NCBI RefSeq assembly: GCF_027594145.1
Contig: NZ_JAQFFK010000003.1
Location: forward strand, 682,001-746,000
Source of the DNA: Methanococcoides alaskense
GTDB lineage: Archaea > Halobacteriota > Methanosarcinia > Methanosarcinales > Methanosarcinaceae
Reading direction: 5' to 3'
Length of the DNA: 64,000 nucleotides
The notes beneath the pieces were generated by a model. That model did not search any database and was not told the origin of the DNA. It saw only the letters and a list, made by a program, of their open reading frames with translations. The first letter of the stretch is position 1. Each line of letters starts with the position of its first letter. This document shows, piece after piece, positions 31,510 through 59,499 of this stretch. The translations under genes and the position numbers were made by a program.

Positions 31510-31562
31510 TATAGTTTATATTATGGAGCAAGACTTATTAACTATGTAAACAATTATTGTTC

Positions 31563-34769: not shown

Positions 34770-35114
34770 ATGAAATTGGTACTTGATATTGACAGAAAAT
34801 AAATTGAAGTGAAAATTGAAGATGAGATATTCAGTTTAACAACTCCACACTCTGATATTCAGTTCGGGATAAGTTGGGGCCTTGCAGTTAAGATGATACA
34901 GCAATTTGGTACAATCCTTAGTCCTCCATTCATACAGATACAAGGCTTAGCAGAAACAGTGGATGGCAAGCTCTTGATGATGGATTTTGCAATGAGCAGG
35001 AATGATTTATGGGTGATGGACCTAAGTCATGGCGATAATAAGTTCTATGCAGAGATGTCAAAAAATGATTTTGGAAGAATTGCATATGTCTTAGATACTT
35101 ATTTAAACAGTTAA
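34770..35114 (+). pseudogene. Small protein with an in-frame TAA near its start
   Basis: ATG 34770 reads MKLVLDIDRK, TAA (34800-34802), IEV and then a 101-residue frame from GTG 34809: MKIEDEIFSLTTPHSDIQFG...QIQGLAETVDGKLLMMDFAM...FGRIAYVLDTYLNS. The first peptide and the rest look like one beta-rich protein cut by a nonsense codon, but GTG 34809 could start a working shorter form. I do not recognise the family. Confidence 0.45.
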
Positions 35115-35251: not shown

Positions 35252-38200
35252 ATGACATCAAAAGGACTTAACAAAGGTCAATCCAAAGCTGTAGATTACA
35301 CAAGTGGTCCTCTGCTGATTCTAGCAGGACCAGGGTCAGGCAAGACTCTGACAATTGCAGAAAAAGTTGTAAAATTGATCAAGGATGGCACAGCTCCTGA
35401 GCGAACACTGGCATTGACATTCTCTGAAAAAGCTGCAGGGGAAATGCAGGAGAGGATCGAGAAGCAGATAGGTACTGATAGTGGGATCACAGTTTCTACA
35501 TTCCATTCATTTTGCAATGACCTTATCCGAGATTTTTCACTTCATTTAGGTATAAATCACAATGTAAAGCTGATCCCAAAAGAACATGCTTATGTCTGGG
35601 GAATGAACAACATTGATTCTTTCGGTCTTGAATACATAGAGATCCCAACTCATCCTTACGATCTTATATCAAGCATGCTTGAAGGTGTTTCCCAATTCCA
35701 TGATCATTTAATCACTCCGTCTGAGTTGCAAGATCACGTAACTCATCGTTTGACAAATGAGCCAGATCTTCATGAAAGTGTAATAGATCGTCTCCAAATG
35801 CTTAGTGATCTGACAAAATTCTACGAACATTATCAGCAGTACAAGAAAGACAATAATTTCATTGATTTTGATGATATGATCAATATCGCCTGCAACCTTT
35901 TAAAAGACAATGAAATTGTGAGGAATCAGGTAAGGGATAGATATGACTACATTCTTGTGGATGAGTTCCAGGACACTAACTATGCACAGCTTTTCCTTAT
36001 CCATCTGATCGCCGATGGTGACAACCTGACCTGTGTAGCGGATGATGATCAATGCATATATCGTTTCAGGGGTGCATATCTTTCCAATATCACGCAGCTT
36101 CAGGATTACTACAATTCACTTGAAAAAATACCGCTTGAGATCAACTACAGATCAACATCACAGATCGTTGAAGTTTCACAGCAGCTCATCAGGAATAATC
36201 CTGAAAGGCAGGTAAAAGATCTCGTGTCACACAATGGGGATGGGGACAAGGTAATGGTGGTAAAGACTCCTGATGAGATAAATGAAGCCGACTGGGTTGC
36301 TGATGAGATCAAGAAGCTTGTTACTGAAGGAAAATTAGAACCTAACGATATCTATGTACTTACCAGAAAAAGAGCTGATGGACAGAAATTTAATGATGCT
36401 TTAAAGAGCAGGATGATCCCAGTTGAGTATGTTGGAAGCCTTCAACTGACGAGTTATCCGATAATTCAGGAAGCTCTGGCATACATCTGCGTTGTTTCTG
36501 ATCCTTTTAATAATGGTATTTCCTTTGCGAAAATATTTGCAAGGGAAGGCGTGACCGAACACAATTTACAGAAGATCAATCTGCTTGCCAGAAAGCTTAG
36601 CAGAAAGTACAAGCTTGCAGGAGATGGAATATATCTTGCACTTTGTGACCATTTCGATGAGATCGATATAACACAGAAAAGCCTTGTGAATACGATATTG
36701 GGCAGAGTACAACATTTGCTGGATTTCAAGAAGAACCACCTCCCGTCAGATACTGTGAAATATCTGTTGATGGAGGACACTGATCTCTATCGTAGTCAGA
36801 TGCAGGATGATGATACAAATTCCAGAAAGAATATCCATCTGTTGAATTCACTTGTTAAGATGGTGAAGGACCTTGAACTTGTAGATGGGGGTTCTAATTT
36901 TGATACTGCGATGGAATATGTAGATCTTGTTTTCGGGATTGATGTTGCAGATGGTGAGTCAAGTGAGGAGAATACTGTCAAAGTAATGACCATACATCAG
37001 TCCAAGGGCAAGGAAGCTAAAGCGGTCTTTGTATGTGATATGGCGGCAAGACATCTTCCTTTGCAGCATATGAAAAAAACATTTACTGTACCTTCTCAAC
37101 TTGCAAAGGGAGTTCAAAGGGATGAGATCGAAGGTATCCTACATATGGAAGAAGAGCGAAGGCTTGCATATGTTGCTATGACACGTGCTCGTGAACATCT
37201 CTATCTTGTGTTCCCTGACAAATATTCAGGAAATAAGAGGTCGGTAAAGCCGAGTGCGTTCCTGGATCAGATCGAATATCTTTCTAATCCTCAGATCGAA
37301 TATATTGAGACCACAGCTTCAACAGTTACTGCAGGACCTGATCTAAAATCTCCTCTTGAAGTTAAGAAAGATGAGTTCCAGCGCCTTGTGAGTATATATT
37401 CCAGACAAGGGCAGGTCAAAGAAGCCATGGAAGCTCTTGTAGTTCTTGCACAACTAAGGGAAGTTGAAACACATGGAAATCTTGCTACTTTTGATCTTAA
37501 AAACTTGCTTAGGGTAAACCCTAAAGAACCGAAGGAATTGGAAGACCTGATTGACAACCGTGTTCCTCCACTTGTTGATCTTGATATGCGTTTCTCGGCT
37601 TCGAAGATTAAGGAGTATATAGATTGCCCATTGAGGTTCAAATATAATTCAATTCTTAATATACCAACCCCACAGATGTCCTTTTTCCAGGTTGGTACCA
37701 GTGTGCATTCTGTGTATGAGCAGATGTCGAAGCTCAAGATGCAGGGAGAGTCTATAGATATGAAACTTGCCAATAAAACACTGGATGATTCATGGGATGG
37801 ATCAGTCTTCTCGTCAGACACACAGGAGAAGCAGGAACATGGCAAGATGAAAGAGATGATTGAATTCTGGTTCGAACTTGAAAAGGAGTGTAAAGATGAG
37901 ACCATTTCAGTGGAGGAATGGTTTGAGCTTGAGATAGATGGTCATTCATTTGGTGGTTTTATCGACCGTATTGATCAAACTCCAGACGGGGAGTATGTTG
38001 TTATTGATTACAAGACAGGCAAGACCACTACTCCGAAGAAGAAGCTGAAAGAAGATGTGCAGATCGCATTGTATTGTCTTGCTGTAAAAGAGAAGTATGG
38101 TAAGCTTCCAGTTCAGGCAGGTCATTTGTATGTGAATCCTAATGTGCAGGAGTTGAGGCTTGTAGATGTTGTTGAGGAAGAGGTTGAGGCTGTCGTTGGT

Positions 38201-38314
38201 AGGATCAAGGAAACTGTGAACAGTATCATGGATGAGGATTTCGAGGTTAAGGATAAGCCGAATTGTTATTGGTGTAATTATGGTGGAATCTGCAGTTGGG
38301 TGAATGGGAAGTGA
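35252..38314 (+). CDS. UvrD/PcrA-type helicase fused to a RecB-like nuclease
   Basis: The 1020-residue protein has superfamily 1A helicase motifs: GPGSGKTLTIAEK (Walker A), TFSEKAAGEMQERI, DEFQDTNYAQ (Walker B), DDDQCIYRFRGA, LEINYRST, VMTIHQSKGKEAK and RLAYVAMTRAREHLY. The last 220 residues are a PD-(D/E)xK nuclease: ASKIKEYIDCPLRFKYN, GGFIDRIDQTPDGEYVVIDY-KTGK, QIALYCLAV, and a cysteine cluster ending NCYWCNYGGIC that with the DCP cysteine should hold a 4Fe-4S cluster, as in AddB/Cas4. It could process DNA ends in repair or attack invading DNA. It is followed within 100 bases by the GHKL-HNH gene on the same strand. Confidence 0.92.
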   Translation: MTSKGLNKGQSKAVDYTSGPLLILAGPGSGKTLTIAEKVVKLIKDGTAPERTLALTFSEKAAGEMQERIEKQIGTDSGITVSTFHSFCNDLIRDFSLHLGINHNVKLIPKEHAYVWGMNNIDSFGLEYIEIPTHPYDLISSMLEGVSQFHDHLITPSELQDHVTHRLTNEPDLHESVIDRLQMLSDLTKFYEHYQQYKKDNNFIDFDDMINIACNLLKDNEIVRNQVRDRYDYILVDEFQDTNYAQLFLIHLIADGDNLTCVADDDQCIYRFRGAYLSNITQLQDYYNSLEKIPLEINYRSTSQIVEVSQQLIRNNPERQVKDLVSHNGDGDKVMVVKTPDEINEADWVADEIKKLVTEGKLEPNDIYVLTRKRADGQKFNDALKSRMIPVEYVGSLQLTSYPIIQEALAYICVVSDPFNNGISFAKIFAREGVTEHNLQKINLLARKLSRKYKLAGDGIYLALCDHFDEIDITQKSLVNTILGRVQHLLDFKKNHLPSDTVKYLLMEDTDLYRSQMQDDDTNSRKNIHLLNSLVKMVKDLELVDGGSNFDTAMEYVDLVFGIDVADGESSEENTVKVMTIHQSKGKEAKAVFVCDMAARHLPLQHMKKTFTVPSQLAKGVQRDEIEGILHMEEERRLAYVAMTRAREHLYLVFPDKYSGNKRSVKPSAFLDQIEYLSNPQIEYIETTASTVTAGPDLKSPLEVKKDEFQRLVSIYSRQGQVKEAMEALVVLAQLREVETHGNLATFDLKNLLRVNPKEPKELEDLIDNRVPPLVDLDMRFSASKIKEYIDCPLRFKYNSILNIPTPQMSFFQVGTSVHSVYEQMSKLKMQGESIDMKLANKTLDDSWDGSVFSSDTQEKQEHGKMKEMIEFWFELEKECKDETISVEEWFELEIDGHSFGGFIDRIDQTPDGEYVVIDYKTGKTTTPKKKLKEDVQIALYCLAVKEKYGKLPVQAGHLYVNPNVQELRLVDVVEEEVEAVVGRIKETVNSIMDEDFEVKDKPNCYWCNYGGICSWVNGK

Positions 38315-38410
38315 AAATTGGAATGTAATAGCATATTTAATAAATCAATCATTTCATATTTTGAGACCTGGTTAACGCTTACATATAATATTCAATATTA
38401 AGTGATTAAA

Positions 38411-41400
38411 ATGTATTCTGAAATTGAATCTAAAGATATAATAGATAGTATCCGTATTGAAAAATCAGGTGAAGGATTAGAAGGACTTGAGAGCGATCCA
38501 AGATCAAAAAAAGCATTTTTAGCTTTACAATCCTCTTTACATAGATCACTTGAAGAACTTGCAGTTGATTTGAATACTGAAAATACACATTTTGTCCTAG
38601 AGCTAATTCAGAATGCTGAAGACAATAAATATTCTGATCAAGTTTCTCCATATATTAAATTTTCAATTGATGAGAAAATCATACTTATTCAAAATAATGA
38701 AGTTGGCTTTGACAAAGAAAATGTTGAGGCAATATGTGATGTAAGGAGAAGTACAAAAGAAAAAAAAGATGGTTATATTGGTGAAAAGGGAATTGGCTTT
38801 AAGTCTGTTTTTAAAATAAGTGATGAACCACATATTTTTTCAAATGGTTTTCGATTCAAATTTAAGAGTAAAGCTGAGGTAAATAATCTTGGTTTTATTG
38901 TTCCATATTGGCTTGAATCAATTCCACAAATAATTAGTCCTGAATGCACAAATATATTGCTTCCTATTAGAGATGATGCTAAAGAAGGCTTGATCCAATT
39001 TAATGACATAGATGCTCACTTGATATTATTTTTGAAAAAATTGAAACGCATTGAACTTATAAATAAAATGGATGAATCACACATTCTAATTTCAAAGGTT
39101 GAAAAAGGAAATTCTATCGAATTAAAAAGTTCAAACGATTTATACAATTATAAAGTAATAAGAAAAACATTAAAAGTTCCTTCAAATATTCAAGAAGAAA
39201 AACGAATAAATGTAAAAAAAACGGAGATCATTCTTGTATTTCCAGTGTCAATGGAAGAGAAGCCGCTAATAGATAATCAAAAAGTTTTTTCGTATCTTCC
39301 TACAAATGAGTATGGTTTTACATTTATAATCCAAGCTGATTTTCTTCTAACAGCTAACAGAGAATCTATTATAAAGAATACTGTGTGGAATGAATGGATA
39401 AGAGACAATATTCATGAAGTATTTTTGGATTCAATCAATTACTTTAAAAGTAAAGAAAATCTGAGAACTACTTTTTATAAATATATTCCATTAAAAGATG
39501 ATATCCATGATGATTTTTTCAGCCAAACGGTCGAAGATCTGTATTATAGCTTAAAAGGGTACGAGTGTATTTTAACAGAATCGGGTTCTTGGGCAAAGCC
39601 TTGCGACGTATTGAAAATCCCGAACAAATTAAAAGAACTAATTTCCAATGAAGATTTGAAAAAAATATATGGGAAAGAGATAGTTTCAAGCAACATATCA
39701 TTAAATACCTCTTTGGCAGTAGAACTAGAAATAAATTCCTTCTCACAGAATGACTTTTTAGAAATACTAAATGAAGAAAACTTCATTGAAACTAAGGACG
39801 ATAGTTGGCTTGTTTCGTTGTATAAATATCTGAGTGAAAATATCGATGATTTCGAAAAACTAAAAAAGTTATCGATGTTTAAACTTAGTGATGGAACATA
39901 TTCTTCTTCTGAAGATTTAACTCTATTTTTCTATTTGAACAAAGAAGGAATAAAATATGAATTTGAGGAAGATTTAAAAAATTCAATTGGCATATTAGAT
40001 TCTGATTTATTCAAGCGGATTGAACAAGAAAAATCTATAATGGATTTGTTTACCGAGTTAGATGTAAAAAATCCTGATTCTTACGAAATTATCAATAATT
40101 ATATACTTCCACTTTATAAAAATGATAATTGGAAAGATAAAAGTGGTGGTGTTTTACGAGAACACACCAAATATATTAAAGATAATATCAATGATTATAA
40201 AAGTAAAACTGAATCCCTTGATTATTTAAAAAACACATTGCTTTTAAAGACAGTTAAGACTAAAGAAGGAGTAAATTATTATAGTCTTCCAGATAAAACA
40301 TACTTGCCTAATATCTATTCTTCTAAATATGATCTAAACAGCTTATTTTTAGGTATTGATGAGTTGAATGAAAATTTTGTAGATTCTAATTATCTCCAAA
40401 AAGAATTAGAAAATTATGATAATAAAATTAGAGACTTAAATAAAAAAGTTGAAGGCAGATCAAAAACATGGATGAAAAAACACAAGAAAGAAGTGAAAGC
40501 AATAAATACAGAATTAATTCAACTGACGAAATTGAAAAATAAGATTATTTCTGGTTGGAGATCCTTTTTCCTTGAGATTGGAGTTAATAATAGCATAACT
40601 GTCAATGAACTGTCTTCATCTCATGAAAGCAAAGAAATTGATGCTATTTTTAAAAGATTGGATAACTATGATTATTCCGACAAGAAAGAAACTGTACACA
40701 TATTGTTCAATATATTCAACAATAATTGGAGTAAATACAAGCGTTTTAAATTTGAAAAATATAGTTCTTCTGAATACTCAAGTTTATTTTCACGACTAAG
40801 AGAAACGGCTTGGATTCCAACAAAAAATAGTACATACTTAAAACCATCCGAAGTTTTCTTTGATAACGTTATAAATAAAGAAATAATGGGAGATAAAGTC
40901 GATTATTTAGATTCAACTATAAGTAAAAGTCCAAATAACGAATTTTTAAATGATATAGGCATTATATTATCTCCATCTGTTAACGTGGTAATTGATAAGT
41001 TAATCAATTTATCTGAAAATAAACATCAAGATAAGGAACTAATTAATAATTTTTATTCGTATTTGAACAAACATTATAAAGAAGACCCTTATTTAATCAA
41101 TCGTTCATTCTCAGAGAATCAAATTATTTTTGATCCTGATTCAAATAAATACTTTTCATTGAACGATGTATTCTGGAGTAATTATTCTGATATATTTGGA
41201 GATACAAAATGTTATTTACAAAAGAATTATTCTCATTTTAAATCACTCTTTTTAGAAAAACTTGACATTAGAACACCAAGTTCAGAAGATTATGCCAAAA
41301 GATTAATTCAATTGTCAAAAGAAGAAGTGTCAAATGATAACAACTCTATCATTAAATATGACCGGATAGTCAAAAAGATATACAAAATCTTAAATGATGA

Positions 41401-43105
41401 ATTAAACCCTGAAAAAAATGAAATAATTATATCTGACGCTGATTGGTGGAATGAATATGATCTAGAAAATCAGTATATTTTATGGACAAATAAAAATTGT
41501 TTTTGGAAAAATGATGCTGATGTGTTCATAAACGATGATGACACTATTTTTTCATTATTTGAGGATAAAGAAAACTTAGCCTTTTTAAAAATACCTAATG
41601 ATTCTTACCCTAAGTTTCAATATTTCATAAAAACTTTCAATATTCAATATGCTTCAAAATCAGTTCAAACTGAGCTGTTAACTGTTAATGGAGAAAAAGA
41701 AAATAATGAGTTAACAGAACTGCTCCATAAGCGTATTGAGCACATTAAAAGATATTTGTACTTTGAAGAAAATGACACCTATACTAACCTCACACAAAAT
41801 GGTGTTTTATCGCACATAGAAGAGATTAAAATTTGTGATGCAGACAATATTGTTGTAAAATATGTTTTATCTGAAGAAGAAGTCACTACCAATGCAAAAA
41901 AATCATTGACTCATAATGAAAAAATATATTTATTAAATAATTCCCCCGATCGAAATTATCTGGGTGTAGCGTTGTCTAAGATATTTGGTGGCTTGAAAGG
42001 TTTAGATGATTTTTTAATATTGATATTTTATCAAAGCGATGAAGAAATAGAACACTTGATGGCTACAAAAGGAATTGGGCATATTCCAATTGATGGGGTA
42101 GATGAAGAAGAAACGCTTGTAGATAAGATGGATGCTAATGAAAACAGTTCTATAAAAGATACTGATGCAGAAGACTCGGAAGTCCTTGAGGATAATTCTC
42201 GAGCAGTTATTGATTCAGAAGACTTGGAAGTCCTTGAGGATAATTCTCGAGCAGTTATTGATTCAGAAGACTTGGAAGTTCCTGAGGATAATTCTCGAGC
42301 AGTTATTGATTCAGAAGACTTTGAAGTTCCTGAGGATAATTCTCGAGCAGTTATTGATTCAGAAGACTTTGAAGTTCCTGAAGATAATTCCCGAACAGTC
42401 ATTGATGCTGAAAAATCAGAAGTCCATTCGTATGACCCAAATGATAAACTAAAAAGTAAAAAAACAAGAAAATCAAATCGTAAGCAAAAAAATAGATTCA
42501 GAAAAGAGTTAACAGGAAAAACACATAAAAGTAGTAAATCAAACCATACTGCTAATCAATCTGATATAACTCCAAACCGTGAAGATGTAAGTAGTGATCC
42601 ATCTGGAGATAAAGCGCCAAAAACGAATTGGAACTCTGAAAGATCCAAATCATTGGTTGAAAAACCAGATCGAAGTAAGGAAGTAGCAGATTGGGTGAAA
42701 AAGCAATATGGTTATCATTGTCAAATTTGTTTGTCTAAAGAGACTCCAGAGTTACTAACACACCACAAATCTTATGCTTCGTATAATATAAACAGAAAAT
42801 CGATAATGGAAGCACATCATTTGAATCCTGTAGGCGGTCAAGGACATGATCATCCAGGGAACTATTTATCTCTGTGTAAATATCATCATGATTTGCTTCA
42901 TAGTTTAATGCTGAATTTGGAAGATATAAGTGAGTCGTTAAAAACTATCTCTGATAAAAAAATAATCTGGAACAAAGATGAATGTTACCATTGGAAATTA
43001 ATTAGTCTTCCAGATCCATACAAAGATAATAAGGAAACAATACGAATAGTTATATCTCCTGATCATCTAAATGAATTGAAGGGGTATGTGAAAATTATTT
43101 CATAA
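38411..43105 (+). CDS. Giant GHKL ATPase (sacsin-like) with C-terminal HNH nuclease
   Basis: The 1564-residue protein begins with a sacsin/NOV-type GHKL ATP-binding domain: VLELIQNAEDNKYSDQ (N box), NNEVGFDKENVEAICDV, GEKGIGFKSVFKISDEP (G1 box). A long helical middle without recognised domains follows (coiled coil near 670-705). At residues about 1252-1338 is an acidic stretch of 16-residue tandem repeats (EDLEVPEDNSRAVIDS), then a lysine-rich linker, and at about 1435-1500 an HNH nuclease: CQICLSKETPELLTHH, EAHHLNPVGGQGHDHPGN, CKYHHDLLH. ATP-dependent sensing tied to DNA cutting is the likely role, and defence the likely context (inference). Start ATG 38411; GTG 38402 also in frame. Confidence 0.85.
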   Translation: MYSEIESKDIIDSIRIEKSGEGLEGLESDPRSKKAFLALQSSLHRSLEELAVDLNTENTHFVLELIQNAEDNKYSDQVSPYIKFSIDEKIILIQNNEVGFDKENVEAICDVRRSTKEKKDGYIGEKGIGFKSVFKISDEPHIFSNGFRFKFKSKAEVNNLGFIVPYWLESIPQIISPECTNILLPIRDDAKEGLIQFNDIDAHLILFLKKLKRIELINKMDESHILISKVEKGNSIELKSSNDLYNYKVIRKTLKVPSNIQEEKRINVKKTEIILVFPVSMEEKPLIDNQKVFSYLPTNEYGFTFIIQADFLLTANRESIIKNTVWNEWIRDNIHEVFLDSINYFKSKENLRTTFYKYIPLKDDIHDDFFSQTVEDLYYSLKGYECILTESGSWAKPCDVLKIPNKLKELISNEDLKKIYGKEIVSSNISLNTSLAVELEINSFSQNDFLEILNEENFIETKDDSWLVSLYKYLSENIDDFEKLKKLSMFKLSDGTYSSSEDLTLFFYLNKEGIKYEFEEDLKNSIGILDSDLFKRIEQEKSIMDLFTELDVKNPDSYEIINNYILPLYKNDNWKDKSGGVLREHTKYIKDNINDYKSKTESLDYLKNTLLLKTVKTKEGVNYYSLPDKTYLPNIYSSKYDLNSLFLGIDELNENFVDSNYLQKELENYDNKIRDLNKKVEGRSKTWMKKHKKEVKAINTELIQLTKLKNKIISGWRSFFLEIGVNNSITVNELSSSHESKEIDAIFKRLDNYDYSDKKETVHILFNIFNNNWSKYKRFKFEKYSSSEYSSLFSRLRETAWIPTKNSTYLKPSEVFFDNVINKEIMGDKVDYLDSTISKSPNNEFLNDIGIILSPSVNVVIDKLINLSENKHQDKELINNFYSYLNKHYKEDPYLINRSFSENQIIFDPDSNKYFSLNDVFWSNYSDIFGDTKCYLQKNYSHFKSLFLEKLDIRTPSSEDYAKRLIQLSKEEVSNDNNSIIKYDRIVKKIYKILNDELNPEKNEIIISDADWWNEYDLENQYILWTNKNCFWKNDADVFINDDDTIFSLFEDKENLAFLKIPNDSYPKFQYFIKTFNIQYASKSVQTELLTVNGEKENNELTELLHKRIEHIKRYLYFEENDTYTNLTQNGVLSHIEEIKICDADNIVVKYVLSEEEVTTNAKKSLTHNEKIYLLNNSPDRNYLGVALSKIFGGLKGLDDFLILIFYQSDEEIEHLMATKGIGHIPIDGVDEEETLVDKMDANENSSIKDTDAEDSEVLEDNSRAVIDSEDLEVLEDNSRAVIDSEDLEVPEDNSRAVIDSEDFEVPEDNSRAVIDSEDFEVPEDNSRTVIDAEKSEVHSYDPNDKLKSKKTRKSNRKQKNRFRKELTGKTHKSSKSNHTANQSDITPNREDVSSDPSGDKAPKTNWNSERSKSLVEKPDRSKEVADWVKKQYGYHCQICLSKETPELLTHHKSYASYNINRKSIMEAHHLNPVGGQGHDHPGNYLSLCKYHHDLLHSLMLNLEDISESLKTISDKKIIWNKDECYHWKLISLPDPYKDNKETIRIVISPDHLNELKGYVKIIS
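42164..42424 (+). repeat. 48-bp in-frame tandem repeat, five units plus a partial sixth
   Basis: Units start at 42164, 42212, 42260, 42308 and 42356; a partial sixth begins at 42404. Each codes for D-S-E-D-L/F-E-V-L/P-E-D-N-S-R-A-V-I. Units 2-4 differ by only a few bases, so copy number has changed recently. The region links the ATPase body to the HNH end. Confidence 0.92.
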
Positions 43106-43228: not shown

Positions 43229-45274
43229 TCAACTTATGAACAAAGCCTTGTGCACAGCATCAATTGGCTCATCATAAAATGCTAACTGGAACTTGCTCAG
43301 CAACTCAGGAGGCACCGTTCCCAATTTCACAGTAGCAGATGCAGGAATTAAAACTTTCTTTGCACCAGCATCCAAGCATACCTGTAATAAGTCTGCCAGA
43401 TTTTCAGTGTTCTGTATTGTTCCACCAATCGTCATGGTACCAATAATCGCGGTTTGCTCTGTTACAGAACGTTCAAGAGCACCTGAGCATAATGCAATAA
43501 AAGCAGCAAGATTTGCACCTTCTGCCATACCAACGCCATAAATGTCCTGTACGTTCAGGAAATAATCCCTTTCTTTGGTCGAGATAGATTGGCTGATAGA
43601 CTTTGCATTTGCTTTAAAGTAGTTCACAGCAGTTTTGATCGATTCTTTTGTTTTCGAATTTGAACCAAGTCCAGATGTATTATATTTTCCATTACCTGCA
43701 GTAACCTGAAGTTCGGTCTTGTATACTCCTACTTTTCCATTTTCAGTCGCAGCTACAGCAAAACACTGTCCTGGTTTTAGCATTCCAGGAGGGATGATCT
43801 GATTTCCACCGCTCTCAGGAACATTGACAAAATTCTCGCTCATGTCCTCATTGTCTATATAAGAGAAATTAACATCGAAGAATTCCATTCCTCCGATCTT
43901 TTTGAGCTGTTCCTTTACCCTTCTTCTGCCTACAAGAGCATACTCTAAGATCTCTTGTACTTCTTCTTTTGTAGCATTTTCGTCAGGATATACAAGCTTC
44001 ATAAGCCCTGAAACAGTCTTTTTGACAGCGATAACATCTCTCTGATTGAGATTATTTCCCAGATTATAATGTTTGAAAATAATATCGCTGTACGATCGTT
44101 TTCTCATTTCTCTTAGGAATTCTGCCAGATAATCTACAATGAATCCATAATGATCTGTGAAATGCTCCGGTCTGAATTTTGGGACTTCCCATCCGGGGAG
44201 ATAATAATGCATCCTATCAAAGAATGCACTGTCATTGTTCATTGCATCTGGGAAGGGAGCAAAAAGGTGGAATGTTTTAAGTAACGAAGATATGCTTTGA
44301 TTAACATTCCCGACAAAAACGATAGATGAATTCGCATTTATTTGGTTCTTTCCACGTGCGAAGGAACCTGATGCCATATAGTCTTTAAGGATTTGTATTC
44401 CATCCTTATCTTTGAAATTGATGCCTGCAACTTCATCAAATGCTACTACATCCCAGTGCCCTACAAGACCTACCTGTCTTGTGCTCATGTTGTAGAATAG
44501 ATTTGCTACTGTTGTCTGACCACCGGACATTAGGATGGAGTTTGGTGATATCTCTTTGTAAACATGTGATTTACCAGTGCTTCTTGGGCCAAGTTCACAG
44601 AGGTTGTAATTGTTCTCTACAAGAGGTACAAGACGTTCGAGAAGATGCCATTTTACATCGTTTTCCAATAATGTTGGTTCCATTCCAATTGTTCTTAACA
44701 AAACGTCTATCCATTCTTCTTTTGTAAAGTTCTTTCTTTGCTCGATAAGTTCATCGACTTTTACGTTTGGTATCTGTATGGGTTTTAAGTCTGCTATCAC
44801 AAATGGTGAAAAGGATGAATCAGTGGAGTATTCCATCTTGATAATGCACCATATTCCGCCACCAAGAAGTTTGTCGTACATTTTTACGTAGCTGGAATCT
44901 ACTTCTACGTTAGTTATGCCAAGATTGTTGAAAGTTGCTTCATAGATGTCTTTCCTTTCGTTGAGCTTGACGACAACATTGTCTATGATGGTGTAATATC
45001 CATTTTCCCTTATTTTCGATTTTATCTTTTCTGCTTCATGAGGACTGACATAATTGTCAGAGAGAATCTTTTTGACCTTCTGGATGCCTTCCTGAATAAG
45101 AGCTTCATCATTGGTAGCACAGTTTATTCCTAACAGGTATTCAAGTACATATACTGGAACATTGTGACCGATCTTGATGAGCTTCGTGAGATCTTTCCTA
45201 ACAACTCGTCCTGAAAAATGCTCATTGAGCTTTCTATCTGTTTCAAGGTCTGGTACTGTGTCTATCATTTTCAT
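43229..45274 (-). CDS. brxL: BREX protein BrxL (Lon-like)
   Basis: The 681-residue protein has the BrxL AAA+ core: ELGPRSTGKSHVYKEISPNS, GGQTTVANLFYN, GLVGHWDVVAFDEVAGINF, DYMASGSFARGKNQINANSS, VFVGNV, FDRMHYYLPGWEVPKFRPEH. The C-terminal 200 residues follow the Lon protease fold (VYKTELQV, IGTMTIGGTIQNTENLADLL, AGAKKVLIP), but where Lon has DGPSAG with the catalytic Ser it reads MAEGANLA, and the Lys position is also changed. It is therefore probably not a peptidase; BrxL acts as a DNA-binding ring ATPase. It is last in the BREX operon, 24 bases after pglZ. Confidence 0.92.
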   Translation of the reverse strand: MKMIDTVPDLETDRKLNEHFSGRVVRKDLTKLIKIGHNVPVYVLEYLLGINCATNDEALIQEGIQKVKKILSDNYVSPHEAEKIKSKIRENGYYTIIDNVVVKLNERKDIYEATFNNLGITNVEVDSSYVKMYDKLLGGGIWCIIKMEYSTDSSFSPFVIADLKPIQIPNVKVDELIEQRKNFTKEEWIDVLLRTIGMEPTLLENDVKWHLLERLVPLVENNYNLCELGPRSTGKSHVYKEISPNSILMSGGQTTVANLFYNMSTRQVGLVGHWDVVAFDEVAGINFKDKDGIQILKDYMASGSFARGKNQINANSSIVFVGNVNQSISSLLKTFHLFAPFPDAMNNDSAFFDRMHYYLPGWEVPKFRPEHFTDHYGFIVDYLAEFLREMRKRSYSDIIFKHYNLGNNLNQRDVIAVKKTVSGLMKLVYPDENATKEEVQEILEYALVGRRRVKEQLKKIGGMEFFDVNFSYIDNEDMSENFVNVPESGGNQIIPPGMLKPGQCFAVAATENGKVGVYKTELQVTAGNGKYNTSGLGSNSKTKESIKTAVNYFKANAKSISQSISTKERDYFLNVQDIYGVGMAEGANLAAFIALCSGALERSVTEQTAIIGTMTIGGTIQNTENLADLLQVCLDAGAKKVLIPASATVKLGTVPPELLSKFQLAFYDEPIDAVHKALFIS

Positions 45275-45297
45275 CTATCCTTAATGGTCATAATACG

Positions 45298-47913
45298 TCA
45301 GAAGAAATCATTTTTTAATAAGAGATCAACATTGAAATCAATTGGATCGAATATTTCTTTGTTAAGTGCTTTATCGTCTTCATCGATGGCATGAAGATAA
45401 TATATCTTATTTTCAACATCATTGGTTAATGTCAGCGTAACTGAATATACTCTTTCCTTTGCATCATTTGATGTGCTATCAGCAATGATAAGCTTCTCAT
45501 CACTTATCTTTTTGTCACCATTACGATTCCATAATGACACTTTACAATGAAGTGGCAACATTTTGTCTGTCACTTTTTCTGATTGTAAGAAGCTGATCTT
45601 GAATGTAGTGTTCGTGATCTTCCTGTTAGGTGTGGTAAGGATCAAACTGACCTTTCCTGTTTTGATGCCTTTCTTTTCGAGTTGAGCAGTCTTTTTGTAG
45701 CTATACTTTAGGAGAGGAACCACAATTTCCTGCGGAGATGCTCCACCATGTACAAAGTTGTTTCCAGCCCCTTGTACTTTGAACCTGAGATCAGCTTGAG
45801 GTGTATAAAGGAATAATTTATCCCCAGAGTTGAAAGTATCTGCCATGTCAAATTTGTGCGTGTTCTTTAACTGAATGTCTTCAGTTGTTAAAACGTAGCG
45901 TTTGTTAGACTCAATGATCTGTTCTTTGTCAAAGTCGGAGAGGTCCCTTTTATCAATATTACCAAGATCATCCCTCTTGTAAATAAAACCATGATCGGAA
46001 GTAATTATTATGTTATTTACAATTTGAGATCTTGCTAATTTGTCAATCACTTTTTTAATATCCTCAATCGCTTTTTCGGCAGCATTGAATACATTATGTT
46101 CTGAAGCAGAATGGTCTCCTGTGGCATCGATTTCGTCGTGATAAACATAGAATAAGCGAATTCCTTTAAACTGTTCTCTTGCTTGTTCTGTTGTAAGATC
46201 AATTACGGCTTTAGAGTTTATAACAATCGAATCTGCGAAAGTATTTTTTAAGATCTTCTCGCGGTTTTGTGAGCCTTCGGTGCTAATTCCATCTGCAATG
46301 ATACGACCACTTTTATATTCGAGATCTTTATGTGGCAATAGGCTTGCCATACCCAATTTTGTATAGGAGGGTAAATTTCCTGTTATAGCATTTAGCTCAA
46401 TGATGCCTGGAGTTTCTCTGTTAAGCACTTCCTGAAGCTCTGCAGCAACTTCATACCTTAGTGCATCAGAGATAATGACTGCAACTTTATCTCGGTCATT
46501 ACGGCTTAAGATCCTATCAACATGTCTTTTGTAGAACTCATTTTGGTGATCTACAAGTTCTACATTCCATTTTCCATTCGTCTCATTGTTGATAGCTTCA
46601 CTCCATTGACCAAGAAGACGATCCATGAGCACATTATTGTAGAGTTTTTCGACAAGTTCACGAGTATTCTTGAGAATGTCCTCTTCCCTGCTCTTGTCGT
46701 AATAGTAATAGAACTTGCGATAATATTGGTCCATTAGGTAATGCTTGTCGGTGTAGGCATGAAAAAGGTCCTTTAAGTTCTTATCACAGAGGTCTTCGAC
46801 CCTGAACTCTTTTGCAAATTTATGCAATAAAATAGCATATTCAAGTGCAAGATAAAGATCGCTGTATTTTGGATACCAGTGTTTTGTTTTTCTTATTGCG
46901 ATCCAATTCAGATAGGATTCGAAATCTTCTTGTCCATTTTCGATATCGATTGCAATGTTATTGATAACTGCTCTGTCAAAGATATCTGTGGACTCGGCTT
47001 CAATATAATCAGGGATATCTGAATTTTTGATGATGTTCTTGAGATCGCTTTCTAACCTTGAGCTATTCTCTTCCATTACTACTTTAGAGAAATCATCGAA
47101 TCCTTGTGAGTCCTTTGAATGATCCATCCAGTTGCGTATGAATATCTCACACTCGTTGCCTTTGGAATTGATATAAGATTTGTAGGTATCCAATTTAAGG
47201 CCAGTGTTTCTGACAATATGGGTTATGATGAAGCTTAAGAACAGCTTTTTAAGAGTTGGTTCTTTCGAATGATAACCGAAGTAACGATTAATAATATTCC
47301 AGAAATCATCTACGAGGTCAAATTTGACAATGTCTTCCCATACCTTGTTATCTTCTTCTTCAAGAGATATCTTTAAAAGCTCTCTCAAGATCTCACGGAG
47401 ATCAGTTGATCGAGAATTCGTAAAAACGGATAAGAAGCCTATTAAGAACTCATCTTTTTTCCAGTCAGCCTGATATAAGCGTAAAAAGGGTTCTGTTCTT
47501 TTCTTGCTAATGAAGAACTTGTATCTTTTTTCGAGGAATTCGTCAAGATCATGCCCATCTATTTCCAATACACTTTTTATGTCCGATATCCTGCTGTTCT
47601 CGAACCTGCCTGAATACATCTGAATGTCAAGAAGCCAGTTATCTTCATAACCTCGTTCATCATCTGGAGAGTAGATCAGATAGTTGGAAGCGGTATCTTC
47701 GACCTCTAACAGCTTCTTTATAGCAAAATAGTTGTTATCAAGTGTTTTAGTCTTGATGTTGTGTTTTGCCAGCTCCTCTTCGATCAGAGCAAGGCTCTCT
47801 TGATCTGCTGTTCTTTCATTGTCATACCAAAAGACTATCTTACGGTCTTCGTAGTCTTCCTTTTCAGCAAATTTCTTGAGAAGCGTTAGGTTTGTTTTCT
47901 CTATGTTAACCAT
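45298..47913 (-). CDS. pglZ: BREX protein PglZ (alkaline-phosphatase fold)
   Basis: The 871-residue protein carries the PglZ domain: the metal site in KVAVIISDALRYEVAAELQE, NAITGNLPSYTKLGMASLLP, GIRLFYVYHDEIDATGDHSA, NNIIITSDHGFIYKRDDLGN, and GGASPQEIVVPLLKY. These are the phosphatase-superfamily metal-ligand blocks. N-terminal 400 residues are helical as in BREX type 1 PglZ. It is needed with BrxC and PglX for methylation and phage exclusion in studied systems. It lies between the RloB-like gene and brxL on one strand. ATG 47913 is followed by MVNIEKTNLTLLKKF. Confidence 0.92.
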   Translation of the reverse strand: MVNIEKTNLTLLKKFAEKEDYEDRKIVFWYDNERTADQESLALIEEELAKHNIKTKTLDNNYFAIKKLLEVEDTASNYLIYSPDDERGYEDNWLLDIQMYSGRFENSRISDIKSVLEIDGHDLDEFLEKRYKFFISKKRTEPFLRLYQADWKKDEFLIGFLSVFTNSRSTDLREILRELLKISLEEEDNKVWEDIVKFDLVDDFWNIINRYFGYHSKEPTLKKLFLSFIITHIVRNTGLKLDTYKSYINSKGNECEIFIRNWMDHSKDSQGFDDFSKVVMEENSSRLESDLKNIIKNSDIPDYIEAESTDIFDRAVINNIAIDIENGQEDFESYLNWIAIRKTKHWYPKYSDLYLALEYAILLHKFAKEFRVEDLCDKNLKDLFHAYTDKHYLMDQYYRKFYYYYDKSREEDILKNTRELVEKLYNNVLMDRLLGQWSEAINNETNGKWNVELVDHQNEFYKRHVDRILSRNDRDKVAVIISDALRYEVAAELQEVLNRETPGIIELNAITGNLPSYTKLGMASLLPHKDLEYKSGRIIADGISTEGSQNREKILKNTFADSIVINSKAVIDLTTEQAREQFKGIRLFYVYHDEIDATGDHSASEHNVFNAAEKAIEDIKKVIDKLARSQIVNNIIITSDHGFIYKRDDLGNIDKRDLSDFDKEQIIESNKRYVLTTEDIQLKNTHKFDMADTFNSGDKLFLYTPQADLRFKVQGAGNNFVHGGASPQEIVVPLLKYSYKKTAQLEKKGIKTGKVSLILTTPNRKITNTTFKISFLQSEKVTDKMLPLHCKVSLWNRNGDKKISDEKLIIADSTSNDAKERVYSVTLTLTNDVENKIYYLHAIDEDDKALNKEIFDPIDFNVDLLLKNDFF

Positions 47914-47955
47914 ACTGATGCATCCGATGAGTATATTGAAGCCAACTGTACGTTT

Positions 47956-48567
47956 TTATGAATTGAAGTTTAGAATCGTTTCAATCATTCTGTGAACTTG
48001 TGTAGATGGATTGCTTTTTGTACTGTTAAGTTCTGTTCCATTGTCAAGATGATATTTTTCCAGCTTTTTAGAGTTCTTGATCGCTGTAACCATTAAAGGT
48101 TCAAGTACTTTATAATAATTTTCACTCTTGCTGTATTCAGATATATTTCTTTTCAATAGTTCTATCAAACCTTTATTTTCAAGAGGAGAATTGTTATAAC
48201 TGAAGTGCAATAAGAACCAAAGTTCAAATGAAGGATTCGAAAAACACATGTTGATAGATCTGCCAGCTTCTTTGTAAGCACTTGATATTGTTTGGTCTGT
48301 ATTTTCATCACGATCAAATACACACCAAATCGAATCTCCACTTTCAATATCCAGCTCATCCAGCTTCTTTTTGGCAAAACCTACTATGTTTACAACGTCT
48401 TTACGATTCGATGGTATCGTGATCACATCGAGGTTGTTCTGTCGTGTTCGATAATTGTTGAAGTAGAGGGGTTCGGTCTTCTCACCTTCACAAATGATTA
48501 CCATTTTATTCCTTGTAGGTCGTTGCCCTCGGTTTCTTCGGCTATAGTCAGACATTCCAGACCCCAT
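47956..48567 (-). CDS. rloB: RloB-like TOPRIM-type protein
   Basis: The 203-residue protein matches the RloB family: RNKMVIICEGEKTEPLYFNN with the TOPRIM-like Glu, IWCVFDRDEN with the Asp pair, SNPSFELWFLLHFSYNNSP. RloB/AbiLii-type proteins pair with an AAA ATPase and act in phage abortive infection or with restriction systems. Here the ATPase gene ends exactly where this one begins (TAA then ATG), so they are a co-translated pair. It sits inside the BREX operon just before pglZ. An internal ATG at 48555 is an alternative start. Confidence 0.88.
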   Translation of the reverse strand: MGSGMSDYSRRNRGQRPTRNKMVIICEGEKTEPLYFNNYRTRQNNLDVITIPSNRKDVVNIVGFAKKKLDELDIESGDSIWCVFDRDENTDQTISSAYKEAGRSINMCFSNPSFELWFLLHFSYNNSPLENKGLIELLKRNISEYSKSENYYKVLEPLMVTAIKNSKKLEKYHLDNGTELNSTKSNPSTQVHRMIETILNFNS

Positions 48568-49824
48568 TTAAGATGAAATAAAAGGTAAAGCTCCATATCT
48601 TCCCATCAGGTATCCTTTTAGAAGATTCTGATCTTTGCGAGGTTTGAACTCTACTAATGAGTAAAGGTCTGTACTCCCCGAATCTGCATCCTTTTCAGTA
48701 AACCAGATCTGATCTCTTCTGAATATCTCATCGTTGAGCAAGTTGGTGTTATGAGTTGTAATTATTAACTGAGCATTGTTCTTATTATAGTTCTTATCAT
48801 GGAACAATTTGATCAAATGCTCACTCAACATCGGATGTAATTTCAGTTCAAGTTCATCAATGAGTAGAACATGTCCATTTTCAAGTGCATCCAACCATGG
48901 TCCGATAAGTGAGAACATCCTCTTTGTTCCTTCTGATTCTTCTGTTTCAAAATTGAACCAAACTTTTTGTTTGTTTCCACTTTCATCTGTTCCAAGATGA
49001 TATGAGTTTATTTCTATCCTCTGGAGCTCACCGTTATCCATATCAAAGCTGCGTGGGAGTTTATCCACTACTTCCTGAGGTGCATCATTCGGCTTGAATA
49101 GTTTTATTTCAGCATCAACATCCACAAGCCCAAGATCCGCCCGTTCAAGAGCCTTGATGATGTCTCTTTTTGAACTATCATTCTTTAACATCTCGATTGT
49201 TGAGTAGTCCTGAACTACTGGCATTGATCCTACAATATGTAAGTTCTCTTTGAACCATTTGAACGCTTCAAGGGTCTTACCATAGTTCTGCTGAGCAGAG
49301 TTCGACAAATAAAGGACATTATCCAACGTCCTTTTCGAAATATCATTCTGAACCCTTTTGTCAGTTGTAAATCTAAATTCCGTAGTGTCTGTTCTTTCAA
49401 AGACCAAAGCTTCCCGATTATTGGGATAATAGTAAAGGAATTCATCAATAATCTTTTCACTATCAAATGATACTCTATACTTGTACCTGACATTGTTCTT
49501 AACAAAGAACACCGTAAACTTTGTCGGCTTCGCCCCATACTCCGTCGCAAGCTTAAATGGAGAATACGGAAGCACATCCCCGATCTGATTCCTAACCGAA
49601 TTGACCACCAGTGCCTGCAGATTGTACATTGCCGCAAGAACATTAGTCTTCCCCGAAGCATTAGCCCCATAGATAACAGAACTTCGAAGTAACCGATCAT
49701 CCTTTTTTAATATATCCAGCTCGATCAAGTTCCCATCGAGTGCCTTATCCGATGATGCCAGTAAACTAAAAGTAATCTCATCCCGAATTGATCTGAAATT
49801 TTCAGCTTTAAATTCAATTAACAT
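48568..49824 (-). CDS. AAA ATPase partner of RloB (RloA/AbiLi-like)
   Basis: The 418-residue protein starts MLIEFKAENFRSIRDEITFS and has the split ABC-type ATPase of the OLD/RloA class: Walker A VIYGANASGKTNVLAAMYNL, late motif FETEESEGTKRMFSLIGPWL, and Walker B VLLIDELELKLHPMLSEHLI with ITTHNTNLLN. The ending FKPRKDQNLLKGYLMGRYGA is typical for this family. It probably senses a cue and activates the TOPRIM-type partner. I chose ATG 49824; a TTG at 49839 has no advantage. A 167-base gap separates it from the dGTPase gene upstream. Confidence 0.88.
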   Translation of the reverse strand: MLIEFKAENFRSIRDEITFSLLASSDKALDGNLIELDILKKDDRLLRSSVIYGANASGKTNVLAAMYNLQALVVNSVRNQIGDVLPYSPFKLATEYGAKPTKFTVFFVKNNVRYKYRVSFDSEKIIDEFLYYYPNNREALVFERTDTTEFRFTTDKRVQNDISKRTLDNVLYLSNSAQQNYGKTLEAFKWFKENLHIVGSMPVVQDYSTIEMLKNDSSKRDIIKALERADLGLVDVDAEIKLFKPNDAPQEVVDKLPRSFDMDNGELQRIEINSYHLGTDESGNKQKVWFNFETEESEGTKRMFSLIGPWLDALENGHVLLIDELELKLHPMLSEHLIKLFHDKNYNKNNAQLIITTHNTNLLNDEIFRRDQIWFTEKDADSGSTDLYSLVEFKPRKDQNLLKGYLMGRYGALPFISS

Positions 49825-50006
49825 GTTGATAACACCCAAATATTGAGATTTAATTGCATTTTTTGTGATTTTTACGTGTATATTGTTGTTTGAACTAGAT
49901 AATATTTAAGTTAATTGCTAAAAACAAATGTGGTTTTTGTTCATTGAATATATGAAAAGAAGAATGCTAAATTCAAAATAATCCTCTAGCATCCTGTATT
50001 ATAATT

Positions 50007-51632
50007 TTAATCTACCAAATATAATTTTTTATATTCATCCTTTGCATAGTTATCAGTCATGCCTGCAATATAATCACATATTGTAGAGAGATAAGCATAA
50101 TTATTTTCTAACAACCATTTAACGAATCGATCAGAATCGTTCTCGATTTCAGAAGTACCTATTTTATTTATAGATTCAAATATTGATTCTTTATCGTGGC
50201 CATTTATATCATAGGGATTTTTAATAATCGGGCCTTGCATGTATATTATAGGAATGTCATCAAGTTTTAACAATTTAATTAACATGGTAATGTCTTTCTT
50301 TGTTCCATTTTTAAAGATATCACTAAGACGTAAATCTATACCATAGAACTGAAACTTATCACGAATTGCTTTTTCTAGCCTCATTAAAACATATGAAGGC
50401 ATTTGTAGAGGATTATTATAATATGCTTTACATAATTGTCTGATAATGAATTTCGATTTTCCATCAAACATGTTCACACCATGTGAATTTATAATTTGAT
50501 GATTTATGTAGCTTTCAATTTTGTTATCCAGAATTGTCCCTAACTCCGAAAAAGATACAAGATTTTTGTCAAGAATTGTACCATTACAAGCATTCGTTCT
50601 AGAGATGTCTAATTCGGAAATCGAGATATTATAATTTGTTGTTCGATAAACATCGATAATAAAATATTCAATGATATCTCTTACTAAACTGTCAATCATA
50701 TAAAGTTTATTTTTGGATTCTTTATTAACTTCGAGTTTGTTTTTTAATATATCCAATGAATTATAACAATCATTCAGATAAACTTTTTCTTGGTGACTAC
50801 ATGACTTACAGTTAACAGGTTTAGCATCGACAATCTCACCTATAAAGCTTATTATTTTTGAATAAACATCATTAGAATCCAATCTCAATGAAGCGTCACG
50901 TAATCCATCATCAAGATCATGTTGACGTTGAGCGATCTCATCGGCAATTGAAACAATTTGACCTTCAAGTGTTACAGAAAAATTAAAATCTAAATACAAA
51001 GTATCAATTAATTTTTTATCATGAATAAATCTTTTGATGTCCCAGCAGTTCCCACATTTAGTACAATCTTCTTCTTTACATCTTTTTGTTCTGGTGTGTT
51101 TTAAGATTCCTTCTAAAACTTGCCAGCTCAGGTTTAATCCAGGTTTATCCTGATATTTTAATGTAGTAATATCCAATACTCGGACACTATTAAAATTGTG
51201 CTTAAAACCGCCATGATTTATTTTAAATCTCGTCATTCCAAGATTGTCATTCCCACTCATCACATCATCTAACACCCTTTCACCTTCATGTCCGAATGGC
51301 GTATGTCCAATGTCATGACCAATTGCAATAGCTTCTACTAAATCTTCATTCACTGAAAGATATCTGGCAAGACTTCTTGATAATTGGGAAACTTCTAATG
51401 TGTGAGTAAGCCTAGTTCTATAGTGATCACCTTTCTCATTAGAGTAGATCTGTGCTTTGTGTTGTAATCTTCGAAAAGCTCTTGAAAAAAAGATTCTATC
51501 TCTGTCTCTTCCAAATTCGCTTCGAATCATTTCTTGCAATATAGGATCTTTTAAAGACAAGTCTTTGTTAGCATCTTCATAAAATCGATCACTTTCTTTA
51601 AATTCTTGTTTCAAATCGGAACTTGATATCAT
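50007..51632 (-). CDS. dGTPase-like HD phosphohydrolase
   Basis: The 541-residue protein has the dNTPase HD motifs: RAFRRLQHKAQIYSNEKGDH, YRTRLTHTLEVSQLSRSLAR, AIAIGHDIGHTPFGHEGERV, and later IVSIADEIAQRQHDLDDGLR with the last Asp. It should cut dGTP to deoxyguanosine and triphosphate. Two inserted cysteine groups (CKEEDCTKCGNC; CKSCSH) may bind zinc. dGTPases starve phages of nucleotides, and its place between pglX and rloA/rloB suggests a defence role here (inference). A GGTGGTAG site before ATG resembles those of brxC and pglX. Confidence 0.9.
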   Translation of the reverse strand: MISSSDLKQEFKESDRFYEDANKDLSLKDPILQEMIRSEFGRDRDRIFFSRAFRRLQHKAQIYSNEKGDHYRTRLTHTLEVSQLSRSLARYLSVNEDLVEAIAIGHDIGHTPFGHEGERVLDDVMSGNDNLGMTRFKINHGGFKHNFNSVRVLDITTLKYQDKPGLNLSWQVLEGILKHTRTKRCKEEDCTKCGNCWDIKRFIHDKKLIDTLYLDFNFSVTLEGQIVSIADEIAQRQHDLDDGLRDASLRLDSNDVYSKIISFIGEIVDAKPVNCKSCSHQEKVYLNDCYNSLDILKNKLEVNKESKNKLYMIDSLVRDIIEYFIIDVYRTTNYNISISELDISRTNACNGTILDKNLVSFSELGTILDNKIESYINHQIINSHGVNMFDGKSKFIIRQLCKAYYNNPLQMPSYVLMRLEKAIRDKFQFYGIDLRLSDIFKNGTKKDITMLIKLLKLDDIPIIYMQGPIIKNPYDINGHDKESIFESINKIGTSEIENDSDRFVKWLLENNYAYLSTICDYIAGMTDNYAKDEYKKLYLVD

Positions 51633-51686
51633 ACTACCACCTAAAATATCATCAACATACCTTAAAGTAGAAAATAGGAACGATAA

Positions 51687-53426: not shown

Positions 53427-53430
53427 TTTT

Positions 53431-55131: not shown

Positions 55132-55181
55132 AGTAGCTACCACTTGATTATTGTAAAATTGTTGTGTTCAATAAGAGCAAA

Positions 55182-55271
55182 TCATACGTTTTGATCTGCT
55201 TGTTCGTTTTTTAAGAATTTGTGAGCTTTGGAGGTCAGGCGATATTTTTGTTTACTGCTGCGAGGTTTCAT
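55182..55271 (-). CDS. Possible 29-residue basic peptide between brxC and pglX
   Basis: A GTGAGG site about 10 bases upstream precedes ATG 55271, which opens MKPRSSKQKYRLTSKAHKFL, KNEQADQNV and TGA. It resembles the start of a winged-helix (KYRLTSKAHKFL). It may be a small gene or a leftover of a lost one. Confidence 0.3.
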   Translation of the reverse strand: MKPRSSKQKYRLTSKAHKFLKNEQADQNV

Positions 55272-55340
55272 CGAACTTGGTCCTCACATGATTCCTCGGT
55301 TGTTAAACTTCGCAACAAATTTTAATCTGGTATTTAATAA

Positions 55341-58913: not shown

Positions 58914-58933
58914 AACTACCACACATTAAACTA

Positions 58934-59499
58934 TTAAATATTGATCAACCTAAATGCTCTATAATAATTCTTAGCAGTCAGTTTTCCAAACAAACTCAGA
59001 TCAAACTCACTATATTCCCCTGGATAGAACATAACAAGGGGCGTATTATCAAACACTGGTTGTAAATTGTTCAAGATCGAATGTGACCTTATCATTGGCC
59101 ATGCCTTCCCAGCACCTGTCAGAAAAATAATATCTGGACTTTCGGCTTCTTCGACCTTGTTCATTATTGTATTTTTAAGAACATCCGGCTTTAGCATAAG
59201 TTTAAGCTTTTTGAGCAACGCATCTGAACCTTTCCTCTTTTCAAGAGCAATGATCTTCTCTTCAGGAATCTGTTGCAATATTTCAAGACAAGTATCGTAC
59301 AGATCGATATTGAGGATAGAAATGGATTCATTTTCGAGACTTGTTATGATCTTGTTGATCTTGTTTCTAACAAGAAGTTCTTTATCTGCTGGATAGTCAA
59401 ATATCCAGAATGGAATCTCATTTCCAAGCCCTCTTGCTTTTAAGAAGTCTTCTTTTTGAGCTCATCTTTTAATTGCTCTAAACGTTCCTCGAAAGTCAT
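58934..59499 (-). pseudogene. brxB: BrxB (DUF1788) with a one-base frameshift
   Basis: ATG 59499 reads MTFEERLEQLKDELKK, then hits a stop (KTS, TAA). Shifting phase at the T5 run 59453-59457 (A5 on the coding strand, one A short) restores EDFLKARGLGNEIPFWIFDY, PADKELLVRNKINKIITSL and onward to DIIFLTGAGKAWPMIRSHSI, NNLQPVFDNTPLVMFYPGEY and FGKLTAKNYYRAFRLINI. The restored 188 residues match BrxB in size and in the GxGxxWPxxRxH and FYPGxY blocks. As given, only a 114-residue C-terminal piece from TTG 59278 could be made. Sequencing error, mutation or slippage control are all possible. Confidence 0.82.

Follow-up and report, generated by a model that had tools for sequence, protein, structure and literature searches.

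The helicase-nuclease gene HEL of Methanococcoides alaskense heads an exchangeable defence slot beside a BREX operon, and this pattern, a resident helicase-nuclease followed by swapped cargo, is real and testable. HEL and the giant gene that now follows it, TmtA, are both of known kinds; new are the wider set of partners, their fixed position on the 3' side of HEL, and the foreign composition of the slot. As the best explanation, with about even chances of being right, we propose that the two are separable defence modules: HEL would head the slot, Tiamat (the family of TmtA) would occupy it at present, and HEL would degrade DNA from the ends that TmtA makes.

Layout of the locus

The stretch analysed (the window, 64,000 nucleotides) lies on contig C3 of the 1.97-Mb genome G000. 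The features discussed are the following, in window coordinates.

35252..38314, + strand: HEL, a UvrD-like SF1 helicase with a C-terminal Cas4/RecB-type PD-(D/E)XK nuclease and Fe-S cysteines, 1020 aa
35267..37210, + strand: UvrD helicase core of HEL, residues 6-653 (PF00580, PF13361)
37589..38293, + strand: PDDEXK_1 nuclease domain of HEL, residues 780-1014 (Pfam, motif conservation)
38378..38387, + strand: TATA-like stretch CTTACATATA, 24-33 bp before the ATG at 38411 (by eye, consensus likeness only)
38402..43105, + strand: TmtA (Tiamat family by match), giant GHKL-ATPase with a C-terminal HNH (PADLOC TmtA, domain matches)
38588..38845, + strand: sacsin/HSP90-like Bergerat ATP-binding region of TmtA, residues 63-148 (PF25794)
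42163..42406, + strand: 48-bp (16-residue) tandem repeat, about 5 copies, in an acidic linker before the HNH of TmtA
42719..42889, + strand: HNH nuclease motif of TmtA, C1440 to H1496 (C-terminal profile, alignment)
43229..59278, - strand: convergent BREX locus (Pfam, PADLOC)

HEL and TmtA lie on the same strand, separated by 87 bp, which agrees with the earlier note that had placed them within 100 bases of each other. The two genes differ in composition by about 12 points (GC 40.8% for HEL vs 28.9% for TmtA). The TATA-like stretch in the gap is a possible promoter of TmtA's own, judged by its letters. The BREX operon, which the earlier note had also seen, converges on the two genes, and its BrxL gene ends 123 bp from the end of TmtA. 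It comprises BrxL, PglZ, RloB with an AbiLi-type ATPase, an HD/dGTPase-like gene (50007-51632, - strand, between PglX and the AbiLi-type ATPase and RloB pair), PglX, BrxC and BrxB. PglX is present as two ORFs on the - strand (53431-55143 and 51687-53426), in different frames and 4 nt apart. A PADLOC PglX model of 593 aa aligns to the second half beginning at its first residue, so that a naturally split form appears likely and a frameshift is less favoured. On the other side of HEL, positions 31557-34808 hold a tyrosine recombinase with a zinc ribbon, followed by ~2 kb with short ORFs only, up to HEL; this region is possibly an integration edge of the island.

The helicase-nuclease HEL

The HEL ORF is open and intact. 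Its Pfam matches (UvrD-helicase, E 3e-69; UvrD_C, E 2.3e-43; PDDEXK_1, E 1.1e-38) and motifs confirm the UvrD helicase, RecB-type nuclease and Fe-S site first read from the letters. The catalytic residues of the nuclease are D905, D919 and K921, and the Fe-S cysteines are C792, C1005, C1008 and C1014. This D...D-x-K site with its four cysteines is intact in 40-41 of 42 family members, and the Walker A Lys/Thr and motif II Asp/Glu are present in 41 of the 42. The match to the cas4 model TIGR00372 (E 5.5e-13) lies under the whole-protein cut-off of that model. With an N-terminal UvrD helicase and a C-terminal PF12705 nuclease that carries the Fe-S cysteines and the nuclease site, HEL is, by its domain content, a member of the UvrD-Cas4 fusion family, pfam12705 branch.

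The AlphaFold model of HEL (24-sequence alignment) has a mean pLDDT of 78.6. UvrD, PcrA and Rep match its helicase, and AddAB and AdnB cover more of its length, with a TM score by query length of 0.54 for AdnB and of 0.51 for AddA. Sequence matches in the PDB are PcrA, AdnB, AddA and RecB. HEL is like AdnAB, AddAB and RecBCD in domain order and, as modelled, in fold (the model aligns with AdnB and AddA), but no second helicase-nuclease subunit stands beside it in the window, and it is placed in a defence island. A second helicase-nuclease of the same general type (924 aa) is encoded in the host genome, so HEL need not be the sole end-processor.

A 2017 study recognised the UvrD-Cas4 fusions as one monophyletic family with type III R-M and Dcm/Vsr neighbours, and predicted for it an ancillary role in several defence systems (PMC5704561, available part). 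HEL shares with that family the UvrD SF1 helicase joined to a pfam12705 Cas4-like nuclease, its presence in bacteria and mesophilic archaea and, at two loci (L077 and L080), a methylase and ResIII context of the type III R-M kind; it differs from the account in the available part of that paper by having Tiamat, Wadjet, McrBC, Dnd, type I-B Cas and BREX as neighbours, and by its fixed polarity and AT-rich, swappable slot.

The giant protein TmtA

The TmtA ORF is open and has 1567 codons from a GTG; from the ATG at 38411 it encodes the 1564 residues given in the earlier note. The N-terminal part matches the sacsin SACS domain of Pfam (E 8.8e-10) and the sacsin ATP-binding domain (E 6.3e-21), and the ATP-binding region matches sacsin structures in a profile comparison (E 2.4e-8). 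A Pfam scan did not find an HNH domain in TmtA. A profile built from its C-terminus and those of two relatives matches TagI, an HNH enzyme (E 2.1e-5), and a 5-methylcytosine-specific McrA-type HNH enzyme (E 0.0014), with the CxxC, EAHH, N and LCxxHH elements aligned between them, and the reading as a sacsin-like ATPase ending in HNH holds. The AlphaFold model of this tail (pLDDT 44.5, 3 sequences) was poor and was left out. The domains of both proteins also support the claim that they are DNA-active. The 48-bp repeat before the HNH is in frame, with copies matching at 95%, and the acidic linker which it forms is probably variable in length.

Seven PADLOC TmtA models match the giant protein (PDLC03972, E 3.5e-162; PDLC03966, E 3e-130; and five more), and on these profiles it belongs to the Tiamat (TmtA) family. 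It is like Tiamat in these matches and in being a giant GHKL-ATPase. The neighbours of its close relatives vary, though 29 of 97 TmtA-like genes come directly after an SNF2 gene. It is unlike Tiamat in being archaeal and in its HNH nuclease, many close relatives having a DUF3883-like E-x-K tail. The tail differs among the relatives, with HNH in the window and L103, and the DUF3883-like form (named by eye) in L104, L105 and others; this modularity agrees with a sensor body that all share and a cutter that can be exchanged. At L104, L105 and L106 a conserved set of genes stands before the TmtA gene with the DUF3883-like tail: a helicase of the ResIII/SWI2 type, two small genes, an ATPase like HerA, and a gene of 440 aa for which Pfam gave no match. 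The closest relative of TmtA (54%) is in a Methanosarcinaceae MAG (L123). Tiamat also occurs in Pseudomonas defence hotspots (PMC12629846, available part).

In VcSduA, a tested protein and a GHKL-type Shedu, the N-terminal GHKL ATPase was proposed to control the C-terminal nuclease (PMC12137116, available part). TmtA is like it in combining, in a single gene, GHKL with a C-terminal nuclease, and unlike it in that VcSduA has a DUF4263 nuclease in place of HNH and a GHKL of the paraMORC3 type (same paper and part); the Pfam scan gave no DUF4263 match in TmtA. A viral or mobile-element origin was rejected for HEL and TmtA, neither having relatives in scans of viral_contigs, where a single-protein query reaches close relatives only.

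Neighbourhoods of HEL in related archaea

A search of 392 genomes found HEL orthologues (~35-65% identity) in 39 of them, at 41 loci with the window included; three of the loci are partial matches (G328, G039, G351), and L118, with a helicase ~28% identical, was left out. Contexts were fetched as 40 stretches, each at most 20 kb long. Downstream genes were compared with the library or our own profiles at 17 loci. At 12 of these a defence system follows on the strand of HEL; at the other five (L063, L079, L082, L083, L084) the downstream genes gave no defence match. No marker from the set, which is incomplete, was found in the fetched stretch at 17 of the 41 loci.

The systems that follow HEL are diverse. 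They are McrC-McrB-Mrr on the same strand (L070); JetA, a 225-aa gene in the JetB position, JetC and JetD of Wadjet (L074, which also holds the single DUF3375 match in the 39 HEL genomes); a PbeA-like helicase with a CoiA-like gene (L075) or with two small genes on the strand of BrxL (L078); and, all on HEL's strand, type I-B Cas genes from Cas8b to Cas3 (L081), a 374-aa ORF and DndC-DndD (L085), ORFs of 259 and 203 aa and then BrxC (L087), a mad3-like gene (L097), SNF2, a 220-aa gene, an N6/N4 methylase and ResIII (L077 and L080), and a 209-aa gene, SNF2 and TmtA (L076). L087 also has an ORF of 1202 aa.

A ~200-aa gene adjoins HEL upstream in L084 and L087 and divergently in L075 and L076; by eye it looks like a CARF and helix-turn-helix regulator of the Csa3 kind. 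In L203, L204, L205 and L217 a distant HEL relative (~30% identical in L203) is convergent with a conserved pair of genes of 443-457 aa and ~1300 aa.

The slot between HEL and BREX

HEL converges on a BREX operon ending in BrxL at eight loci (the window, L063, L070, L073, L074, L075, L078 and L079). Cargo on the HEL side precedes BrxL in seven of the eight, and always on the strand of HEL. In L063 it consists of two genes, of 266 aa (no match) and 220 aa, and in L079 of one 218-aa gene without a match; the eighth locus, L073, has no HEL-strand gene before BrxL and carries a Mrr-like gene on BrxL's strand. The cargo has a GC content below both flanks in all seven cases, 6.9-15.7 points under HEL. 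The length-weighted values (GC %, in the order HEL, cargo, BrxL) are as follows.

Window: 40.8, 28.9, 39.0
L063: 44.3, 28.6, 43.6
L070: 44.7, 32.7, 43.1
L074: 47.4, 39.2, 45.5
L075: 46.4, 36.9, 47.1
L078: 43.2, 34.5, 43.5
L079: 38.9, 32.0, 42.8

The marker set first used had been picked mostly downstream of HEL, which inflates the downstream count; polarity was therefore measured with whole-genome censuses of BrxL and TmtA (392 genomes) and of McrC, HsdS and DUF3375 (39 HEL genomes). The control consisted of tRNA-synthetase genes (149 among the matches listed), and the half-domain rows of HsdS were merged manually into 68 entries. At a distance of up to 12 kb from HEL we find BrxL in 8 of 14 cases vs 3 of the 149 controls listed (Fisher 4e-8), TmtA in 5 of 6 (Fisher 5e-7, same controls listed) and McrC in 2 of 11 (Fisher 0.04, same controls listed), or in 7 of 11 within 40 kb (Fisher 2e-7), p-values which overstate independence since the HEL loci are related (all from one phylum, and the BREX ones from one family). 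HsdS shows no enrichment within 12 kb (2 of 68 vs 3 of the 149 controls listed, Fisher 0.65), which tells against HEL sitting beside every restriction system. Among the 16 loci with any census marker within 40 kb, four of which had unequal contig ends, the markers are solely 3' of HEL at 15, and solely 5' at one (G237, which is L093).

This polarity bears on the possibility that HEL is a complete one-gene defence, that TmtA acts alone, and that their neighbours reflect the mere clustering of defence genes. We hold this, the main rival to cooperation, to be possible but somewhat unlikely. Clustering alone fails to predict markers that are 3' of HEL at 15 of the 16 loci, or cargo co-directional with HEL in all seven cargo-bearing BREX loci. 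The contexts of HEL are varied, as this reading would have it, some without a marker nearby, and the TATA-like stretch between the two genes suggests separate transcription of TmtA. Tiamat is said to have been presented by Millman and colleagues in 2022 as a single-gene anti-phage family, and the PADLOC models bear one name, TmtA. Immunity by a single nuclease-helicase protein exists in other families; Nhi combines nuclease and SF1 helicase domains, the two kinds of domain that HEL has.

A dedicated unit of HEL and BREX was considered on account of the BrxL enrichment and rejected, as at 32 of the 41 loci the contig carries no BrxL closer than 40 kb to HEL, and the identities conflict for some pairs. 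Across the eight BREX loci the HEL and BrxL identities are correlated (Mantel r 0.65, p 0.007), with clear conflicts: between the window and L073, BrxL is 91% identical but HEL 64%. Such conflicts for some pairs indicate that the HEL-BREX link has been reshuffled too.

HEL and TmtA as a pair

The earlier note had proposed HEL and TmtA as a candidate defence pair. Both belong to families tied to defence (Tiamat and the UvrD-Cas4 fusion) and both lie inside a defence island, and to this extent the proposal stands; the idea of a dedicated unit with a new domain set is not supported, in view of rare adjacency and a known family. TmtA-like genes were collected from 35 of the 392 genomes of the phylum with a match (contexts were fetched for the stronger ones) and from 80 loci of a GTDB genome scan; the resulting set of 106, less four duplicate loci (L134, L130, L125, L145), left 102 for the comparison of neighbours. 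Direct adjacency was counted where the HEL-family profile scored >1000 bits on the same strand. HEL adjoins the TmtA-like gene in 2 of the 102, upstream in the window and downstream in L093, and the gene-neighbourhood survey thus went largely against the pair, the earlier note having said that rare neighbourhood would refute it. As a conserved unit the pair is rejected; L093 keeps it as an occasional arrangement.

It is improbable that the two genes form a dedicated two-component system, in which HEL would unwind and trim and TmtA would clamp and cut. The shared strand and short gap in the window speak for it, as do the order SNF2 > TmtA-like > HEL in L093 with gaps of 13 and 6 bp, and the location of the genes within 12 kb of each other in five of the six genomes with both (a count that leaves out a 52-residue TmtA match in G011). 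Helicases often adjoin TmtA-like genes: an SNF2 helicase is directly upstream in 29 of the 97 with the upstream gene in view, and an NERD-SF1 helicase is directly downstream in 7 of 78. These counts show that TmtA-like proteins accompany helicases, usually not HEL. Against a dedicated system stand the adjacency count, the 12-point GC difference, the many other systems that adjoin HEL, and the closest TmtA relative, L123, where HEL is absent from the 9 kb upstream (the contig ends inside the gene, with the 3' side out of view). HEL and TmtA are probably separate antiviral tools and not a matched pair.

The upstream SNF2 helicase is DrmD-like in L109, L110, L153, L067, L076, L156, L159, L162, L165-L168, L178, L179, L181 and others; it has an N-terminal PLD domain in L067, and none was found in L093. 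SNF2-TmtA is a recurrent two-gene operon which the single-gene label of TmtA misses. In seven proteobacterial loci (L137, L139, L140, L142, L143, L144, L146) an SF1 helicase of ~570 aa lies immediately downstream of TmtA, and a NERD nuclease domain was found in the one scanned, L142. A similar setting was described in 2008 for the MORC/paraMORC families, where GHKL ATPases stand next to a variety of helicases and nucleases in operons resembling R-M (PMC2292703, available part).

The earlier note had also set the genes apart from Gabija (GajAB), and the domains agree. Gabija likewise has a UvrD-like helicase beside an ATPase-nuclease, and PADLOC GajB models match HEL, but there is no GajA (ABC ATPase with TOPRIM), HEL has its own nuclease, and the second gene is GHKL-HNH. 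A Gabija variant was rejected, there being no GajA-type partner and the second gene matching TmtA only in PADLOC and SACS in Pfam.

That HEL is a repair or recombination enzyme which marks the island edge, or aids cassette exchange by end processing, is very unlikely. In its favour, the content of the island is strictly polar relative to HEL, the tyrosine recombinase lies upstream of it in the window, and at four loci of the window's genus (L065, L066, L067, L069) conserved genes without a defence role run divergently from HEL (a PLP decarboxylase and others, with a sensor kinase in three). Against it, the orthologues are patchy and not universal, their chromosomal settings differ, and the other helicase-nuclease of the genome could serve repair.

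Proposed mechanism and implications

In the reading that we prefer, of two separable modules, HEL would be the resident UvrD-Cas4 helicase-nuclease at the head of the slot, and the AT-rich TmtA would occupy it at present, inserted between HEL and the convergent BREX operon. By analogy with VcSduA, TmtA may act as a GHKL clamp whose ATP-driven closure gates the HNH nuclease, and upon some trigger it would nick or cut invader DNA. AddAB, AdnAB and RecBCD need DNA ends, and the same is expected of HEL. Resembling AdnAB and AddAB, it could load on ends made by TmtA or by another occupant such as McrBC, Wadjet or Cas, and would then unwind and degrade the fragments. Speaking against this reading are the lack of HsdS enrichment, the 17 loci without a marker, the reshuffling of HEL relative to BrxL, the relatedness of the loci, and the second helicase-nuclease of the genome. 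A broader version, in which HEL is a shared processor of archaeal immunity that stays put while Tiamat, Wadjet, McrBC, Cas, Dnd or BREX come and go behind it, is more speculative, and we regard it as rather unlikely.

No description of the partner set, the 3' polarity or the foreign slot was found in the titles and abstract openings covered, a search outside which most subscription papers lie. The slot was likewise not found in the available parts of PMC3710099, PMC12458937 (where one passage concerns ARMADA), PMC12733681, PMC12407980 and PMC12409356, and a search inside PMC10853773 gave no match. The accessible part of a BREX survey (PMC12839542) makes no mention of GHKL, HSP90, UvrD, Tiamat, RecB or sacsin.

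What had looked like a one-off pair becomes a general, testable pattern: an enzyme proposed as ancillary in 2017 stands with fixed polarity ahead of no fewer than seven kinds of defence system among methanogens and their relatives. The cargo at L063, L079, L082, L083 and L084 provides immediate candidates for new defence genes. If HEL boosts the occupant of its slot, it would account for the final destruction of cut viral DNA in these archaea, and if the broader version is true, HEL would be their common DNA-shredding step, as RecBCD is for bacteria. If HEL gives no such boost, the slot would still be a ready place in which to seek new archaeal defence genes.
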